Below, piece by piece: positions 9,607-31,356 of a DNA stretch of 64,000 nt. How positions within the stretch are numbered: position 1 is the stretch's first letter; each line of letters starts with the position of its first letter. The notes beneath the pieces were generated by a model that ran no database searches, had not been told where the DNA came from, and saw only the letters and a program-made list of their open reading frames with translations. Source of the stretch: Mycobacterium sp. Root265 (lineage in GTDB: Bacteria; Actinomycetota; Actinomycetes; Mycobacteriales; Mycobacteriaceae); NCBI RefSeq assembly GCF_001428895.1, contig NZ_LMJA01000001.1:452485-516484 (forward strand), in the 5' to 3' direction. A program made the position numbers and the translations under genes.

Positions 9607-9622
9607 ATTCCGACAATGGAAT
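9607..9622. promoter_or_regulatory. Operator-like palindrome in the potA/permease divergent region
   Basis: ATTCC-GACAAT-GGAAT is a perfect 5-bp inverted repeat with a 6-bp spacer, in the roughly 200-bp space between the divergent ABC operon and the NCS1 permease gene. Related half-sites (GATTCCGC and GAATCCGC) flank it. It may bind a shared regulator; no regulator gene lies next to it. Chance occurrence cannot be excluded. Confidence 0.3.
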
Positions 9623-25261: not shown

Positions 25262-26338
25262 ATGCGCAGAGTGGTCCAGTTCTCCACCGGCAATGTCGGT
25301 CGCCACGCACTGCGGGCCCTCATCGGGCGGCCCGATATGCAACTCGTCGGGCTGCATGCGTCCGGACCGGACAAAATCGGACGCGACGCCGCCGACGTGT
25401 GCGGCCTGCCGACGCCGACCGGCGTCATCGCCACCGACGACATCGACGCACTCATCGACCTCGCACCGGATTGCGTCGTCTACACCGCGCTCGCCGAGAC
25501 CCGGCCGGTGCAGGCCATCGACGAGCTGACCAGGTTTCTCGGCGCCGGGATCAACGTCGTGGGCACCTCGCTGGTCTGGATGGCGGCGCCACGTCACGCC
25601 GAGAGCTGGGTGAAGGAGCCCCTGCAGGCCGCATGCGAGGCGGGCAGTGCCTCGCTCTACATCAACGGGATCGACCCCGGCTACTCCGGAGACACCCTCG
25701 TCCACACGGCGGCGAGTCTGGCAACCCGCGTCAGTACCATCACCGTGCAGGAGATCTTTGACTATGGGAACTACGACGATGCCGAATTCACTGGTGCATC
25801 AATGGGGTTCGGCACAGCCGAATCAGACGAGCCACCCCCACTCCTGCTTCCCGGCGTGGTCGAATCGCTGTGGGGTCCGCAGGTGCGTGGGCTGGCGGCC
25901 AATCTCGGTGTGACGCTCGACGAGGTCCGGCAGCGGACCGAACGGTGGTTCACCCCGGAGCCCATCGAGTGCACCATGATGTCGGTGCGGCCCGGCCAGA
26001 TGGCCGCCATCCGGTTCGCCACCGAGGGCGTGCTGGACGGACGCACCGTGATCACTCTGGAGCATGTCAACCGCCTGACCACCGCGGCCGCGCCGGAGTG
26101 GGACTTTCCACCGGACGGGCATGTGGGGGTGCACCGGGTCGTCGTCGATGGTGATCCCCGCGTGGAACTCAATACCCACCTGTCACACCCGGTCCTCGAT
26201 CCCACCGATGCCGGTTGCATCTCGACGGCGGCACGCGTCGTGAACACGATCGACTGGGTGTGCGATGCGCCGGCCGGAGTGATCGCCGTCGAGGACATCC
26301 CGCAGTCCGCGCTCATGCGTGGCCTGCTCTGGAGTTGA
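25262..26338 (+). CDS. Dihydrodipicolinate reductase-like NAD(P)-dependent dehydrogenase
   Basis: The 358-residue protein has an N-terminal Rossmann motif (VVQFSTGNVGRHALRALIG), followed by HASGPDKIGRDAADVCGLP and VVYTALAET. These match the large actinobacterial group annotated as DapB-like or NAD(P)H-dependent amine dehydrogenase-family proteins, which are longer than true DapB and are found in catabolic clusters. The C-terminal part (GIDPGYSGDTLVHTAASL, MMSVRPGQMAAIRF, GDPRVELNTHLSHPV) belongs to the same family. ATG 25262 follows GAGGAG at six bases. The P450 operon starts 180 bases downstream with its own promoter-like sequence. It may reduce a carbonyl or imine in the pathway. Confidence 0.75.
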   Translation: MRRVVQFSTGNVGRHALRALIGRPDMQLVGLHASGPDKIGRDAADVCGLPTPTGVIATDDIDALIDLAPDCVVYTALAETRPVQAIDELTRFLGAGINVVGTSLVWMAAPRHAESWVKEPLQAACEAGSASLYINGIDPGYSGDTLVHTAASLATRVSTITVQEIFDYGNYDDAEFTGASMGFGTAESDEPPPLLLPGVVESLWGPQVRGLAANLGVTLDEVRQRTERWFTPEPIECTMMSVRPGQMAAIRFATEGVLDGRTVITLEHVNRLTTAAAPEWDFPPDGHVGVHRVVVDGDPRVELNTHLSHPVLDPTDAGCISTAARVVNTIDWVCDAPAGVIAVEDIPQSALMRGLLWS

Positions 26339-26430
26339 GTCCCGCGGGCAGCCTCGCCGAAACCCGATATTTGGTCGACCCCGTGGTGCTGCGGACACGT
26401 TAGACCGCAAACCGCACGTCAGTTCGGTCG

Positions 26431-26460
26431 TTGACCGCACAGCGGAACAACCATTAGGGT
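26431..26460 (+). promoter_or_regulatory. Promoter candidate for the P450/AveC operon
   Basis: TTGACC (26431-26436), an 18-base spacer and TAGGGT (26455-26460) resemble a SigA-type promoter (-10 form TANNNT). It would start transcription around 26467, about 50 bases upstream of the first P450 start codon, in a region with no gene. Confidence 0.45.
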
Positions 26461-26519
26461 GCTGTGCAACAAACTTTAGGTTTCATGGCTGTTGCCACCG
26501 AATCGATCAGGAGCGTGCG

Positions 26520-27788
26520 GTGACCGACTTCGACACAGTGGACTACTTCACCGACGAGTCGCTGGTGCCGGACCCCTACCCGTACTTCGACCATCTGCGC
26601 GCGAAGAGTCCGGTGGCACCGGCGACACCGTTCAACGTCGTGGCGATCACCGGTTACGACGAAGCGCTCGCGGTGTACAAGAACCCGGCATTCTCGTCGT
26701 GCAACTCGGTGGCCGGTCCGTTCGCCGGCCTACCGTTCGGCCCCGGCGACAGCGATGACGTCAGCGAGCTCATCGAGCAGCACCGCAATCAGGTACCGAT
26801 GGCCGAACACATCACCTCGCAGGATGCGCCGCTGCACACCCGCACCCGCGGCTTGTTGAGCCGGCTGATCACACCGAAACGCCTCAAGGAGAACGAGGAC
26901 TTCATGTGGCGGCTCGCCGACCGACAGCTCGACACCTTCCTCGCGCGGGGGAGTGCGGAGTTCCTGGCCGATTACGCAAAGCCGTTCTCGCTGCTGGTCA
27001 TCGCTGATCTGCTGGGGGTGCCGGAGCAGGACCATGCGGAATTCAAGGCGGTCTTCGCGCTCGAGACCGTCGGCGAACTCGGCAAGGAAGCGCCGACCAC
27101 GCACAACCCACTGCAGTGGCTGAACGAGAAGTTCTTCGGCTACATCGAGGATCGCCGACGAACACCCCGCGAGGATGTGCTGACCGAACTCGCGCAGGCC
27201 AAGCATGAGGACGGGTCGACACCCGATATCGAGGATGTGATGAACCTGTCGACGTTCCTGTTCGCCGCCGGCACCGAGACGACGACGAAGCTGGTGAGTT
27301 CGGCGGTACGGTTCATCGGGGACAACCCCGGTTTCGAAAAGCTGCTGCGCGACGACCGCAGCAAGATCCCGGCATTCCTGGAAGAGACACTGCGGCTGGA
27401 GAGCCCGGTGAAATCCCATTTCCGGATGGCGAGCGCGTCCACGACGGTCGGCGACGTCAACATCCCAGCGGGAACGACCGTCATGGTCTTGCCGGGAGCG
27501 TGCAATCGGGATGCCCGAAAGTTTGCCAATCCCAATGAATTCCAGACCGATCGACCCAACGTGCGTGAGCAGATCGCCTTCATCCGCGGCGCGCACTCCT
27601 GCCCCGGGGCGCCGCTGGCCCGAGCGGAGGGCCGCATCTCGCTCGAGCGGATCCTGGACCGCATGCGCGACATCACGATCTCCGAGGAGCATCACGGCCC
27701 CGCCGAGGACCGCCGCTACGGATACGAGCCCACCTTCATCATGCGCGGGCTCAGCGACCTGCACATCACCTTCACGCCGGCAGCCTGA
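26520..27788 (+). CDS. Cytochrome P450 monooxygenase (first of two)
   Basis: The 422-residue soluble bacterial P450 has the I-helix oxygen-activation motif FAAGTETTTKLVSS, the K-helix E-x-x-R in FLEETLRLES, and the haem-binding loop FIRGAHSCPGAPLARAEG with Cys361 as thiolate ligand. GTG 26520 follows AGGAG at six bases; the frame stays open upstream across the end of the previous gene but has no better start. It uses electrons from a ferredoxin system not encoded here. It is the first gene of a tight five-gene operon; the SDR begins 17 bases downstream. The CYP family cannot be assigned without alignment. A hydroxylation role on a lipid, terpenoid or steroid substrate is inferred from its neighbours. 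Confidence 0.92.
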   Translation: MTDFDTVDYFTDESLVPDPYPYFDHLRAKSPVAPATPFNVVAITGYDEALAVYKNPAFSSCNSVAGPFAGLPFGPGDSDDVSELIEQHRNQVPMAEHITSQDAPLHTRTRGLLSRLITPKRLKENEDFMWRLADRQLDTFLARGSAEFLADYAKPFSLLVIADLLGVPEQDHAEFKAVFALETVGELGKEAPTTHNPLQWLNEKFFGYIEDRRRTPREDVLTELAQAKHEDGSTPDIEDVMNLSTFLFAAGTETTTKLVSSAVRFIGDNPGFEKLLRDDRSKIPAFLEETLRLESPVKSHFRMASASTTVGDVNIPAGTTVMVLPGACNRDARKFANPNEFQTDRPNVREQIAFIRGAHSCPGAPLARAEGRISLERILDRMRDITISEEHHGPAEDRRYGYEPTFIMRGLSDLHITFTPAA

Positions 27789-27805
27789 CGAGAGGATCAG
27801 AAAAG

Positions 27806-28684
27806 ATGCCCGGAAAACTCGAAGGCAAGGTCGCCTTCATCACCGGCGCCGCTCGGGGGCAGGGCCGCGCCCATGCGATCGCGATGGCACGAGAAGGCGC
27901 CGACATCATCGCCGTCGACATCTGCCGCGACATCCCTTCCAACCCTTACCCGTTAGCCACTCCCGAGGATCTCGCCGAGACCGAACGTTGCGTCAAGGGG
28001 TTGGGCCGACGGATACTGGCCCGCATCGCCGATGTGCGTGAGCGCCACGAACTGCGCGATGCGGTCGAGGCGGGCGTGGCCGACTTCGGAAAGATCGACA
28101 TCGTCGTTGCCAACGCCGGCATCCTCCCGATGGCCATGGGCAACCCCGACCCGATGGGCTTCGTGGATGCCTCCGATGTCGACCTGCTCGGCGTGATGAA
28201 CACTGTGGCAGTGGCCATTCCACACCTGCCCGACGGGGCGTCGATCATCGTGACCGGATCCACCGCGGGCATGATTCGCGGCACCACCACCAGCCCGGAC
28301 ATGGGGCCCGGCGGCGCCGGGTACGGCTGGAGCAAGCGCATCGTCATGGAATATGTCGATGAGATGTGTCTGCACCTGGCGCCGAGAATGATCCGGGTCA
28401 ACGCCGTGCACCCGACGAACTGCAACACCCATCTGCTGCAGAACGAGGGCATGTACGGGGTGTTCCGCCCCGACCTGAAGGCGGAGGGCAAGATCGCCAC
28501 CCGGGAGGACGCCGAGCCGCTGTTCAATTTGTTCCAGGCGATGCCCATCCCGTACATCGAACCCGAGGACATGGCCAACCTGGGCGTGTTCCTGGCAAGC
28601 GACGAGAGCCGCTACATCACCGGCCAACACATCCGGGTGGATGCCGGATCACTCCTCAAGTGGCCCAACGGACCTGGCGGCTAG
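27806..28684 (+). CDS. Mycofactocin-coupled SDR-family oxidoreductase
   Basis: The 292-residue SDR starts LEGKVAFITGAARGQGRAHA, the extended Gly-rich motif of the mycofactocin-coupled SDR family, with a characteristic insertion after strand 2 (VDICRDIPSNPYPLATPEDL). Further features are VVANAGILP, the catalytic Ser in VTGSTAGMIRGTT, Tyr-x-x-x-Lys in GYGWSKRIVMEY and the C-terminal YITGQHIRVDAGSLLKWPN. These enzymes keep NAD(H) tightly bound and pass electrons to the peptide-derived cofactor mycofactocin, oxidising alcohols. In this operon it would oxidise the alcohol made by the P450. The start is ATG 27806 with GAGAGGA upstream. The mycofactocin biosynthesis genes are not in this window. Confidence 0.9.
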   Translation: MPGKLEGKVAFITGAARGQGRAHAIAMAREGADIIAVDICRDIPSNPYPLATPEDLAETERCVKGLGRRILARIADVRERHELRDAVEAGVADFGKIDIVVANAGILPMAMGNPDPMGFVDASDVDLLGVMNTVAVAIPHLPDGASIIVTGSTAGMIRGTTTSPDMGPGGAGYGWSKRIVMEYVDEMCLHLAPRMIRVNAVHPTNCNTHLLQNEGMYGVFRPDLKAEGKIATREDAEPLFNLFQAMPIPYIEPEDMANLGVFLASDESRYITGQHIRVDAGSLLKWPNGPGG

Positions 28685-28695
28685 GGGGAGGTGTC

Positions 28696-28812
28696 GTGGG
28701 ACAACTCATCATGCTCGGAACGTTGTTCGGACTGATCATGGTGATCTTCGGACTCGTCTGGTATTTCGATCCCGAAGCACGAGGCAACGGCCCTCGGGAG
28801 AGTGATCGATGA
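28696..28812 (+). CDS. 38-residue single-pass membrane peptide
   Basis: GTG 28696 follows a strong GGGGGAGG ribosome-binding site and encodes VGQLIMLGTLFGLIMVIFGLVWYFDPEARGNGPRESDR (in two pieces: a membrane helix, residues 2-24, and an acidic/polar tail). It sits 11 bases after the SDR stop, and its TGA overlaps the ATG of the AveC-like gene (ATGA), so translation of the next gene is coupled to it. No known family is recognised. It is too short for most gene finders. It may be a small accessory subunit that helps the AveC-like membrane enzyme, or a leader that serves coupling only. Confidence 0.7.
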   Translation: MGQLIMLGTLFGLIMVIFGLVWYFDPEARGNGPRESDR

Positions 28813-29597
28813 ACACCCAGCTGACGCCCGCCCTCGTTGTCGGCCTCTCCTTTGCCTACATCGGGGGAGCGCTGTTCCTGGCGTACGGGGTGTACTTGAG
28901 CTACCGGCGTGGCCGCCTGCATCCTCTGCTGCTGGTGTCCATCTCGGCCATTTCGTTCTCCTGGATCGAAGCGCCGTATGACTGGGCGATGTACGCGCAG
29001 TTCCCGCCTGCACTCCCGCGCATGCCGTCATGGTGGCCGATGAATTTCACCTGGGGCGGCGGACTGCCATCGGCGGTGCCGATTGGCTACATCGCCTACT
29101 TCGTGTTGCCCGCGGTGATCGGCGCCGCACTCGGCCGGTGGGTGATCCGACGGTTCGGGTGGCGGAGGCCGCAGACCCTGCTCGTCGTGGGGTTGCTCGT
29201 CGGCTTCTGCTGGGCGTTGTTCTTCAATGCCTTCTTTGGGCCGCGGTTCGGAGTCTTCTACTACGGCTTGGTGATTCCGGGGCTCGCGATCTTCGAGGGC
29301 ACCAGGTACCAGTACCCGATCTACGACGCCATCGCCATGGCGGTGCAGATGATGGTGTTCACCTATCTGCTCGGGCGTACCGACGGGCAGGGCCGCAATG
29401 TCGTTGAGGTGTGGTCGGACAACCGGTCGAAGAGTCGTACCGGATCCGCCCTGTTGTCCGTCGCGGCCATGATCGTGGCCGGGCATCTCGCCTACGGCGC
29501 CGTATTCGCCCCGCACCTGGCAACGAAGCTCGGTGGCCACGTCACCTCAGGTCCGACAGAACAGTTGTTTCCCGGTGTACCCAACCAGCCAAGATAG
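28809..29597 (+). CDS. AveC-family (spirocyclase-like) integral membrane protein
   Basis: The 262-residue protein has about seven hydrophobic segments. The sequence SWIEAPYDWAMYAQFPPALPRMPSWWPMNFTWGGGLPSAVPIGY (residues about 58-101) is the strongly conserved core of the AveC spirocyclase family, and FGVFYYGLVIPGLAIFEGTRYQYPIYDA is a second conserved block. AveC of the avermectin pathway shapes the spiroketal; mycobacterial homologues have no established function. It follows the 38-residue peptide with an overlapping stop/start and precedes the second P450 by nine bases. In this setting it may isomerise, cyclise or dehydrate an oxygenated lipid or terpenoid in the membrane. Confidence 0.82.
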   Translation: MNTQLTPALVVGLSFAYIGGALFLAYGVYLSYRRGRLHPLLLVSISAISFSWIEAPYDWAMYAQFPPALPRMPSWWPMNFTWGGGLPSAVPIGYIAYFVLPAVIGAALGRWVIRRFGWRRPQTLLVVGLLVGFCWALFFNAFFGPRFGVFYYGLVIPGLAIFEGTRYQYPIYDAIAMAVQMMVFTYLLGRTDGQGRNVVEVWSDNRSKSRTGSALLSVAAMIVAGHLAYGAVFAPHLATKLGGHVTSGPTEQLFPGVPNQPR

Positions 29598-29606
29598 GTC
29601 TCCGCT

Positions 29607-30806
29607 GTGACCATTGATCCCAGTGTCGAGCTGTATTACGACCCGTTCGACAACGACATCGACGACGATCCCTATCCGATCTGGAAGCGGATGCGCGACG
29701 AGGCGCCGCTGTACTACAACGAGAAGTACAACTTCTACGCACTGAGCCGCTACGAAGATGTCGCTCCGGCACTGCCGAACTGGCAGACGTATCGATCGGG
29801 CCACGGCACCACCGCCGACATTCTGTTCAGCGGTATCGAAGTGCCGCCCGGCATTCTGCTCTTCGAGGACCCGCCGCTGCACGACCTGCATCGCAAGCTG
29901 CTGTCGCGGGTGTTCACGCCCCGACGGATGCTGGCGGTCGAGGATCTGGTGCGCGAATTCTGTTCGCGCGCCCTGGATCCGATCGTCGGATCAGATCGCT
30001 TCGACTTCGTCGTCGACCTGGGTGCCATCATGCCGATGCGCACCATCGGCTACCTGTTGGGCATTCCCGAGGATGCCCAACAACTCATCCGCGACCGCAA
30101 CGACACCCGGATCACCGTCGACTCGAGCCCGGACGGCGATATCAGCCCGTCGATCTTCCAGGACGCGATCGCCGAGTTCGTGGAATACATCGAATGGCGG
30201 GCCACGCACCCTTCCGACGATTTGATGACCGAACTGCTCAACGCCGAGATCGAGGAGACCGGCGGCAACCGTCGCAAGCTCGAACGCGGTGAAGTACTGG
30301 CGTACACCGCGATGATCGCCGGAGCGGGTAACGAAACCACCGCGCGTCTGATCGGCGCGATGGGGCAGCTGCTCGCCGAGCATCCCGAGCAGCGGAGGCA
30401 GCTCGTCGCCGACCCGTCGCTGATCCCCGGCGCCGTCGAGGAGACGCTGCGTTTCGAGCCGCCGTCACCGGTTCAGGCCCGCTACGTGGCCCGCGATGTC
30501 GAACACTACGGCCAGACCATCAGTGCGGGGTCCTACCTGCTGTTGCTCAACGCGTCCGCCGATCGGGATCCTGCGCGACACCCCGACCCTGACCGGTTCG
30601 ACATCCACCGCAAGGCACCGCATCTGGGCTTCGGTCAGGGCATTCACTTCTGCCTGGGCTCGGCGCTCGCGCGCCTGGAAGCGCGGGTGGCGTTCGAGGA
30701 GGTGCTCAAGCGCTGGACCGACTGGGATGTCGACTACGACAACGCGCGCCGCGCACACACCTCCAGTGTGCGCGGCTGGGCACAGTTACCGGTCCGCACC
30801 CGCTGA
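29607..30806 (+). CDS. Cytochrome P450 monooxygenase (second of two)
   Basis: The 399-residue P450 has the I-helix motif MIAGAGNETTARLIG, the K-helix E-x-x-R in AVEETLRFEPPS, and the haem loop LGFGQGIHFCLGSALARLEA with Cys349. It differs clearly from the first P450 of the operon in sequence and length, so the two probably act at different steps. GTG 29607 is nine bases after the AveC-like stop, at the end of the operon. Redox partners are not in the window. The downstream convergent gene is an SRPBCC protein, a fold that often binds hydrophobic ligands. Confidence 0.92.
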   Translation: MTIDPSVELYYDPFDNDIDDDPYPIWKRMRDEAPLYYNEKYNFYALSRYEDVAPALPNWQTYRSGHGTTADILFSGIEVPPGILLFEDPPLHDLHRKLLSRVFTPRRMLAVEDLVREFCSRALDPIVGSDRFDFVVDLGAIMPMRTIGYLLGIPEDAQQLIRDRNDTRITVDSSPDGDISPSIFQDAIAEFVEYIEWRATHPSDDLMTELLNAEIEETGGNRRKLERGEVLAYTAMIAGAGNETTARLIGAMGQLLAEHPEQRRQLVADPSLIPGAVEETLRFEPPSPVQARYVARDVEHYGQTISAGSYLLLLNASADRDPARHPDPDRFDIHRKAPHLGFGQGIHFCLGSALARLEARVAFEEVLKRWTDWDVDYDNARRAHTSSVRGWAQLPVRTR

Positions 30807-30900
30807 GTTCAGCTGCGGCCGGCTTCGGCGCGGAAGCCATGCGCCTCCTCGTGGGTGATCTGCCGGCGACGGTCGCCATGATCGAAGCCTGACTGCGCGG

Positions 30901-31356
30901 TCAGCCTTGTTCGACGTAATCCTTGATGCGGTTCAGCGTCGTGGTCATGTCCCGGACGTTGCGGCGGCGGCGCAGGAAGTACAGCGGCTCAAAGGGTCGC
31001 ACCAATGCCGGGAGCGGCAGGAAGAAGGATTCGGTCACCTTCGTCGACGTCGCGCCGTTGGGCTCGAATCGGTAATGCCAGTTGTTGACCGCGCGATCGC
31101 CGATGAGGACCTCGAAGCCGAACTCCTTGCCCGGTTGGCAGGCCGTCACGCGGCAGGTCGTCCAGTAGATCGGTCCGATCTCGTTGCGCTTGACGTGCCC
31201 GCGGAACTTCGCGCCGAGCGCCGGTCCGGTTGCTCCGTCGAGCCACTCCGCCTCGAAGACCTCGGGGGAGAACTTGCCGGTGTTGCGGATATCGGACACC
31301 ACGTTCCACACATCGATGGCAGGGACATCAATGACAAGTGTGGCGGAATCACGCAT
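30901..31356 (-). CDS. SRPBCC (START/polyketide cyclase-like) family protein
   Basis: The 151-residue protein has the helix-grip pattern: ATLVIDVPAIDVWNVVSDIRNTGKF at the N-terminus, LGAKFRGHVKRNEIGPIYWTT and a long C-terminal helix (FLRRRRNVRDMTTTLNRIKDYV). Such proteins bind hydrophobic ligands in an internal cavity; some are cyclases or aromatases, others carriers. It ends 95 bases after the second P450 on the opposite strand. A role with the P450/AveC products is possible but not shown. The start is ATG 31356. Confidence 0.82.
   Translation of the reverse strand: MRDSATLVIDVPAIDVWNVVSDIRNTGKFSPEVFEAEWLDGATGPALGAKFRGHVKRNEIGPIYWTTCRVTACQPGKEFGFEVLIGDRAVNNWHYRFEPNGATSTKVTESFFLPLPALVRPFEPLYFLRRRRNVRDMTTTLNRIKDYVEQG

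Follow-up and report, generated by a model that had tools for sequence, protein, structure and literature searches.

A single-helix peptide paired with an AveC-like membrane protein in cytochrome P450 and mycofactocin-linked gene clusters of mycobacteria

Five genes follow one another on the forward strand in a 64,000-nucleotide stretch of the genome of Mycobacterium sp. Root265 (NCBI RefSeq assembly GCF_001428895.1, contig NZ_LMJA01000001.1, positions 452,485–516,484), which is called the window below. They encode a cytochrome P450 (P450-1), a mycofactocin-coupled short-chain dehydrogenase/reductase (SDR), a very small membrane peptide, an AveC-like membrane protein and a second P450 (P450-2). 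An earlier note on this DNA had proposed that the five genes form one operon for a single oxidative pathway. Here we found that the lasting unit in related genomes is the pair of peptide and AveC-like protein and not the five-gene set, and that P450-2 is the gene most often found with the AveC-like gene after the peptide. In many relatives a divergent gene for a TetR-type regulator and a palindromic site adjoin this module; both are gone in Root265, where the module appears to have joined an upstream P450–SDR operon.

The membrane peptide accompanies the AveC-like protein

The analysis used a sample of 198 genomes of the genus and a separate set of 65 named loci. In total, the peptide gene was located directly 5' of the AveC-like gene in 98 of the 99 intact loci looked at, that is, in 64 of the 65 named loci, in 27 of 27 further loci and in seven of seven extra loci, six of which belong to another actinobacterial family (f19) and one to a genus-mate. 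The six f19 loci, all with the peptide and AveC pair, had been chosen for their profile pattern. Left out of the 27 further loci were L065 and L066, which are of another subtype (33–34% identity) and have no peptide match, and L074, in which AveC is broken. The only miss, L127, comes from M. alsense, which has two copies; it contains a shortened peptide remnant, and the second pair of the same genome (L150) is intact. No peptide was found at L074 (genome G057) or at L195 (genome G752 of f19), where only a remnant of AveC is left. All three loci look like products of decay of the pair.

In relatives the peptide is 30–48 residues long, has one helix and follows the pattern MGAVIMLGTLFGLIVLIFGLVxxFDPEARR. 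Its stop codon and the AveC start codon overlap by four bases in 48 of 63 measured loci and are separated by 5 to 58 bases in ten (the strict peptide pattern missed L127 and L147, hence 63 loci instead of 65; the variant peptide of L147 is counted among the 64). The ratio of non-synonymous to synonymous differences (pN/pS) was 0.23 for a 28-codon core of 63 distinct sequences, which indicates purifying selection and therefore a gene, not a chance reading frame. Since the peptide stands beside nearly every AveC-like protein of this type, a two-part membrane protein is suggested, and we infer that the two products form one complex. Single-helix microproteins, such as KdpF and CydX, are subunits of membrane enzymes; the peptide resembles them in its very small size, its one membrane helix and its position beside the gene of a large subunit. 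No report of a single-helix microprotein paired with an AveC-like protein was found in the literature searched, outside which many subscription papers lie; to that extent neither the small partner protein nor the TetR site described below has been reported.

The AveC-like protein differs from most of its family in helix 4

As the earlier note had supposed, the AveC-like protein belongs to the AveC family: it matched PF17198 (AveC_like) with an E value of 1.1e-75 and 254.5 bits (cut-off 26.6) over profile positions 2–234 of 234. Four AveC_like genes were revealed in the Root265 genome. The model of the protein (predicted local distance difference test score, pLDDT, 87.3; predicted TM-score, pTM, 0.85) contains six long helices, while its long paralogue AveC2 was modelled with an extra N-terminal helix, seven in all (pLDDT 75.9). 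The peptide may therefore supply a seventh helix, an idea that sequence comparison favors weakly at most. Neither model had a PDB match at E ≤0.001, and TM-scores did not exceed 0.31 among the 50 matches listed for each; structural kinship to EXPERA or Pyr4-type membrane cyclases, which had been expected, was dropped on this ground.

AveC of Streptomyces avermitilis carries out spiroketalisation and dehydration, and Ser138 and Ala139 are among its residues named in the accessible text of PMC13303154. The Root265 protein shares its Pfam family with this member of the avermectin cluster, and its match covers almost the entire profile. It differs from the PF17198 family, with which it was compared in place of the sequence of AveC itself, in being short (262 amino acids), in having a helix peptide encoded separately and in the Ala-x3-Asn motif of helix 4. 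This motif is present in all 12 orthogroup rows of an 18-sequence alignment and in all seven rows of a second set, whereas 20 of 25 distinct other AveC_like rows (one gene stood twice in the alignment, as L196 and L204) have Asp-x3-Glu; of the rest, four lack only Asp and one only Glu. The acidic pair is an observation in the sampled rows rather than a published criterion, and the Root265 protein does not have it. Because it is replaced in the orthogroup, the spirocyclase chemistry of AveC is not safe to transfer. The orthogroup retains an acidic residue in helix 2; Gly93, Tyr94, Leu124, Pro170 and Gly195 are invariant in the 18-sequence set, and Pro170 and Gly195 also in the wider set.

A mycobacterial oxidative pathway with an AveC-like enzyme and mycofactocin electron flow had been regarded as new. 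This has to be toned down, as mycobacterial members of the AveC family have been annotated before, one of them as a signature-indel entry (PMC5819568, in its accessible part), and the acidic pair of most other types is missing here. The literature searched, with the scope given above, contained no paper on the function of the mycobacterial proteins.

The five-gene order is kept in a minority of loci

Orthologs were defined by identity cut-offs of our own choice (AveC 55%, P450-2 73%, SDR 80%, P450-1 74%), and the AveC and P450-2 counts refer to the matches listed. At least 105 of the 198 genomes have AveC orthologs, at no fewer than 108 loci, including the short or broken AveC pieces of genomes G120, G008 and G057. 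At 20 of the 108 loci listed, the four large genes share one strand and the Root265 order (the peptide was no part of this test, and Fisher tests on these loci ignore kinship); 14 of the 65 named loci have this order too, seven of them with an opposing TetR gene between SDR and peptide. Thus, the strict synteny that the earlier note had named as support was not observed.

The listed P450-2 orthologs come from 69 genomes, 68 of which also have AveC. Of the 108 loci, 65 have one no more than 10 kb from AveC, downstream on the same strand in 37 and divergent upstream in 28; for SDR and P450-1 orthologs the corresponding numbers are 46 and 40. In slow growers, e.g., M. scrofulaceum and M. nebraskense, P450-2, TetR, peptide and AveC are present at the locus and neither SDR nor P450-1 is there. 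Among the relatives, M. frederiksbergense LB 501T (L092) is the closest, and it contains the whole Root265 neighborhood. No match was found in plasmid records. Two outcomes had been named as speaking against the five-gene pathway, a failure of the AveC-like protein to match its family profile and the independent occurrence of the genes in related genomes; the first did not occur and the second did. One fixed five-gene pathway is therefore only partly supported.

A TetR gene and its putative site are missing from the Root265 junction

A divergent TetR gene is located 5' of the peptide in 48 of the 65 named loci, and in relatives the TetR–peptide intergenic region contains the palindrome ATAGTRTSCACTAT, which the TetR protein presumably binds. 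A relaxed form of the motif was revealed in 44 of 47 TetR-bearing named loci versus none of 16 TetR-less ones; in loci that had not been used to find the motif, the numbers were 21 of 23 and none of four. A search of both strands of 63 named loci (1.14 Mb) with the strict motif gave 35 occurrences, none of them outside this intergenic region. The six f19 loci gave no match to the relaxed motif.

In the Root265 window the palindrome is absent; two matches with three mismatches were found versus 2.16 expected. Allowing up to two mismatches, it is no commoner in the whole genome than its reversed control (12 versus eight matches). There is no TetR gene at the junction, and when the N-terminal 90 residues of a TetR protein from one relative were compared with the genome, the best match reached 49% across some 71 residues. 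With gene and site both gone, the peptide/AveC module would have joined the upstream P450–SDR operon.

Similar events can be traced elsewhere. Two M. peregrinum loci differ by an apparent single deletion of the TetR gene and half of the palindrome. On the AveC tree the TetR label needs 10 changes, seven of them forced by the starred branches (at least seven), and we read these changes mainly as losses. Of the 17 TetR-less named loci, 16 have a co-directional P450 or SDR gene upstream, versus 11 of 48 TetR-bearing ones; as such genes are so common in TetR-less loci, we take the pattern to mean that upstream P450/SDR operons captured the module repeatedly. It should be mentioned that L146, from a record titled Acidobacteria bacterium isolate UR.bin238, contains a mycobacterial-type cluster and that its AveC stands among mycobacterial ones in the tree; the contig is possibly wrongly binned.

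The P450s and the SDR

Both P450s pass their Pfam profile (Table 1) and, as proposed earlier, they are clearly different. The solved protein nearest to P450-1 is CYP150A6 (6dcd, 581 bits, versus 154 bits for the next P450 of solved structure), and by this clear top match P450-1 is assigned to the CYP150 family. P450-2 is of a different type, with 5vws as its top solved match (209.5 bits); an assignment to CYP189 would be a guess. The SDR scored 330.1 bits with the profile of mycofactocin-coupled SDRs (TIGR03971, curated cut-off 300), which bears out its earlier assignment, and it resembles these enzymes also in that its nearest solved relatives bear the name carveol dehydrogenase (3pxx, 281 bits). 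It is predicted to pass electrons to mycofactocin.

CYP150A5 of M. marinum, which together with CYP150A6 is the best-matching known system for P450-1, converts beta-ionone, a terpenoid-like substrate, to 4-hydroxy-beta-ionone, according to the accessible text of PMC6237146; a terpenoid-like substrate is therefore plausible, but no more than that, for the Root265 pathway. Ferredoxin genes are reported near CYP150A5 in the same source, whereas the five-gene unit contains none.

The mycofactocin radical S-adenosylmethionine (SAM) protein is present in 192 of the 198 genomes; in the remaining six, orthologs of AveC, SDR and P450-1 are absent as well. Co-occurrence or co-loss with mycofactocin genes, proposed earlier as support for the pathway, is uninformative because this protein is near-universal in the genus sample, and it was dropped as evidence.

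Operon layout and neighboring genes

The reading frames, strands and intergenic gaps (17, 11, −4 and 9 bases from 5' to 3') all agree with the earlier description of five co-directional genes as a single unit (Table 1). The promoter candidate proposed at 26431–26460 found no support: a simple sigma-70 scan of 26330–30910, a weak test in mycobacteria, gave zero matches versus a mean of 0.6 in shuffled sequences.

Table 1. Features of the five-gene unit of Mycobacterium sp. Root265 (window coordinates)
Feature	Position	Strand	Remarks
P450-1, CYP150-like, 422 amino acids	26520–27788	+	PF00067 (Pfam profile search); heme-ligand stretch FIRGAHSCPG
Mycofactocin-coupled SDR, 292 amino acids	27806–28684	+	TIGR03971; YxxxK stretch YGWSK
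SDR–peptide junction, 11 bp	28685–28695		TetR gene and palindromic operator at this place in many relatives
Membrane peptide, 38 amino acids, single helix, GTG start	28696–28812	+	Adjoins the AveC-like gene
ATGA overlap, peptide stop/AveC-like start	28809–28812	+	Translational coupling likely
AveC_like membrane protein, 262 amino acids, six long predicted helices	28809–29597	+	PF17198
P450-2, 399 amino acids	29607–30806	+	PF00067 (Pfam profile search); heme-ligand stretch FGQGIHFCLG

At 25262–26338, on the same strand and 5' of the operon, there is a DAP_DH_C (2,4-diaminopentanoate dehydrogenase-like) gene, called DapB-like in the earlier note; proteins resembling its product by eye are encoded near AveC in L049, L053 and L055. 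This gene and an SRPBCC gene had been considered possible members of the unit, but they stand beside the operon in two and three of the 65 named loci, respectively; after these neighborhood counts both, and a gene of the major facilitator superfamily (MFS), were dropped as pathway members. The Root265 genome gave 66 P450 profile matches, some of them pieces of one gene, and thus has a large P450 complement.

A larger oxidative cluster

Several other genes recur in the vicinity. Within 9 kb, AveC2 was found in 17 of the 65 named loci, a third P450 in 18, a second SDR in 18, an aldehyde dehydrogenase in 23, a LivK-like protein in 23 and CbbQ in eight; hence at least 17 loci have two different AveC-like genes per cluster. 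These shared neighbors suggest that the module belongs to a more extensive set of oxidative genes, which is probably catabolic. A similar block is present in f19 at L197 and, without an aldehyde dehydrogenase match, at L198. In Root265 the first half of the cluster lies to the left of the window (approximately C1:440000–450470), about 28 kb upstream of the second half, which begins at C1:479004.

At one place in the Root265 genome (G000:C12, L036, 6514–11482) two AveC-like genes in the same orientation flank genes for a CbbQ-type ATPase and a protein with a von Willebrand factor A (VWA) domain, and in L035 (7000–9610) CbbQ and a CoxE-like VWA gene precede AveC2. CbbQ and VWA are a possible maturation system for AveC-like proteins. 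Next to them, at 9607–10725 of L035, a Peripla_BP_6 (LivK-like) protein is encoded that by eye has no signal peptide and may be a cytosolic binding protein; LivK-like proteins recur near AveC-like genes in several genomes (L107, L109, L199, L202).

Discussion

We favor the reading that a two-piece membrane protein, together with P450-2, was captured by a CYP150–SDR operon, and we consider this reading as a whole probable, if far from assured. The single-helix peptide would be translated just before the six-helix AveC-like protein, probably in a coupled manner, and their constant pairing suggests that the two bind each other. At the membrane, they and P450-2 may act on a hydrophobic compound. 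The gene order in Root265 suggests that the module is read from the upstream CYP150–SDR pair, presumably as one transcript. This pair could prepare the compound on which the module acts. P450-1 would hydroxylate an alicyclic or terpenoid-like compound, the SDR would oxidise the alcohol and hand the electrons to mycofactocin, the peptide/AveC-like protein would perform an acid–base step in the membrane (dehydration, isomerisation or ring closure), and P450-2 would oxidise the product again in the last step. This order of reactions is a guess.

A number of observations weigh against the reading just given. The palindrome was spotted by eye, and its first count was made on the very loci in which it had been spotted; it is missing from TetR-bearing L104, L141, L142 (region incomplete), L049 and L062. 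On the tree, changes of the TetR label could be either gains or losses, and the TetR-less loci L112 and L067 have no recognised P450 or SDR upstream (the L112 genome has a P450 fragment there). P450-2 does not adjoin AveC in 14 of the 65 named loci, and its ortholog is not within 10 kb of AveC in 43 of the 108 loci listed; the counts are not corrected for kinship. Two comparisons that might have linked the peptide to helices of longer proteins had little to offer. When the peptide was matched to the additional N-terminal helix found in long AveC-like proteins, nine of 100 shuffles scored at least as well, i.e., the match is not above chance, and an origin of the peptide as a detached helix of that kind was rejected. 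Homology to the C-terminal extra helix of P0012/P0013 is weak (one of 200 shuffles, noticed by eye and post hoc, with a position-specific score inside the background) and is kept as a hint only. Finally, the gene order is also compatible with a role in transport or anchoring.

Such a role, in which the peptide and the AveC-like protein form a membrane carrier, channel or anchor that brings a hydrophobic substrate to the P450s and has no enzymatic activity, agrees with a six-helix membrane protein that has no PDB match, with the link to P450-2, with the absent acidic pair and with the LivK-like binding proteins nearby. The founding member of the family, AveC, is an enzyme according to the accessible part of PMC13303154, and the five invariant residues fit either role; we regard a carrier as rather doubtful. 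If, on the other hand, the protein were a true spirocyclase/dehydratase of secondary metabolism that yields a spiroketal or dehydrated product as in avermectin biosynthesis, the strong PF17198 match and the activities of AveC itself (PMC13303154, same part) would be accounted for. The uniform Ala-x3-Asn in orthogroup rows, the catabolic-looking oxidoreductases next to part of the relatives and the presence of four AveC_like genes in one genome make this very unlikely.

The peptide could also be a leader only, whose translation drives re-initiation at AveC and whose product has no role. The frequent four-base overlap is what such a leader would show, but the amino-acid sequence is conserved across two actinobacterial families, also in loci without overlap, and we think this explanation highly improbable. 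A broader and, in our view, unlikely proposal is that actinobacterial AveC-like proteins are a class of integral-membrane enzymes whose unsolved fold needs seven helices, present here as a six-helix subunit plus a microprotein; they may require ATP-driven maturation by CbbQ/VWA, like some metal-bearing enzymes, and their step in the membrane would link the reactions of P450 and mycofactocin-SDR within a catabolic cluster that is conserved. Maturation of this kind is suspected because a CbbQ-type ATPase and a VWA protein adjoin AveC-like genes at two separate places of the genome.

A family known from an antibiotic pathway is frequent in the oxidative clusters of mycobacteria, where it takes a two-gene form whose conserved microprotein is easily missed. 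Repeated loss of a repressor together with its site would provide a natural experiment in operon merging. Two tractable points are thereby raised, the dependence of the AveC-like protein on its peptide and the predicted TetR site.

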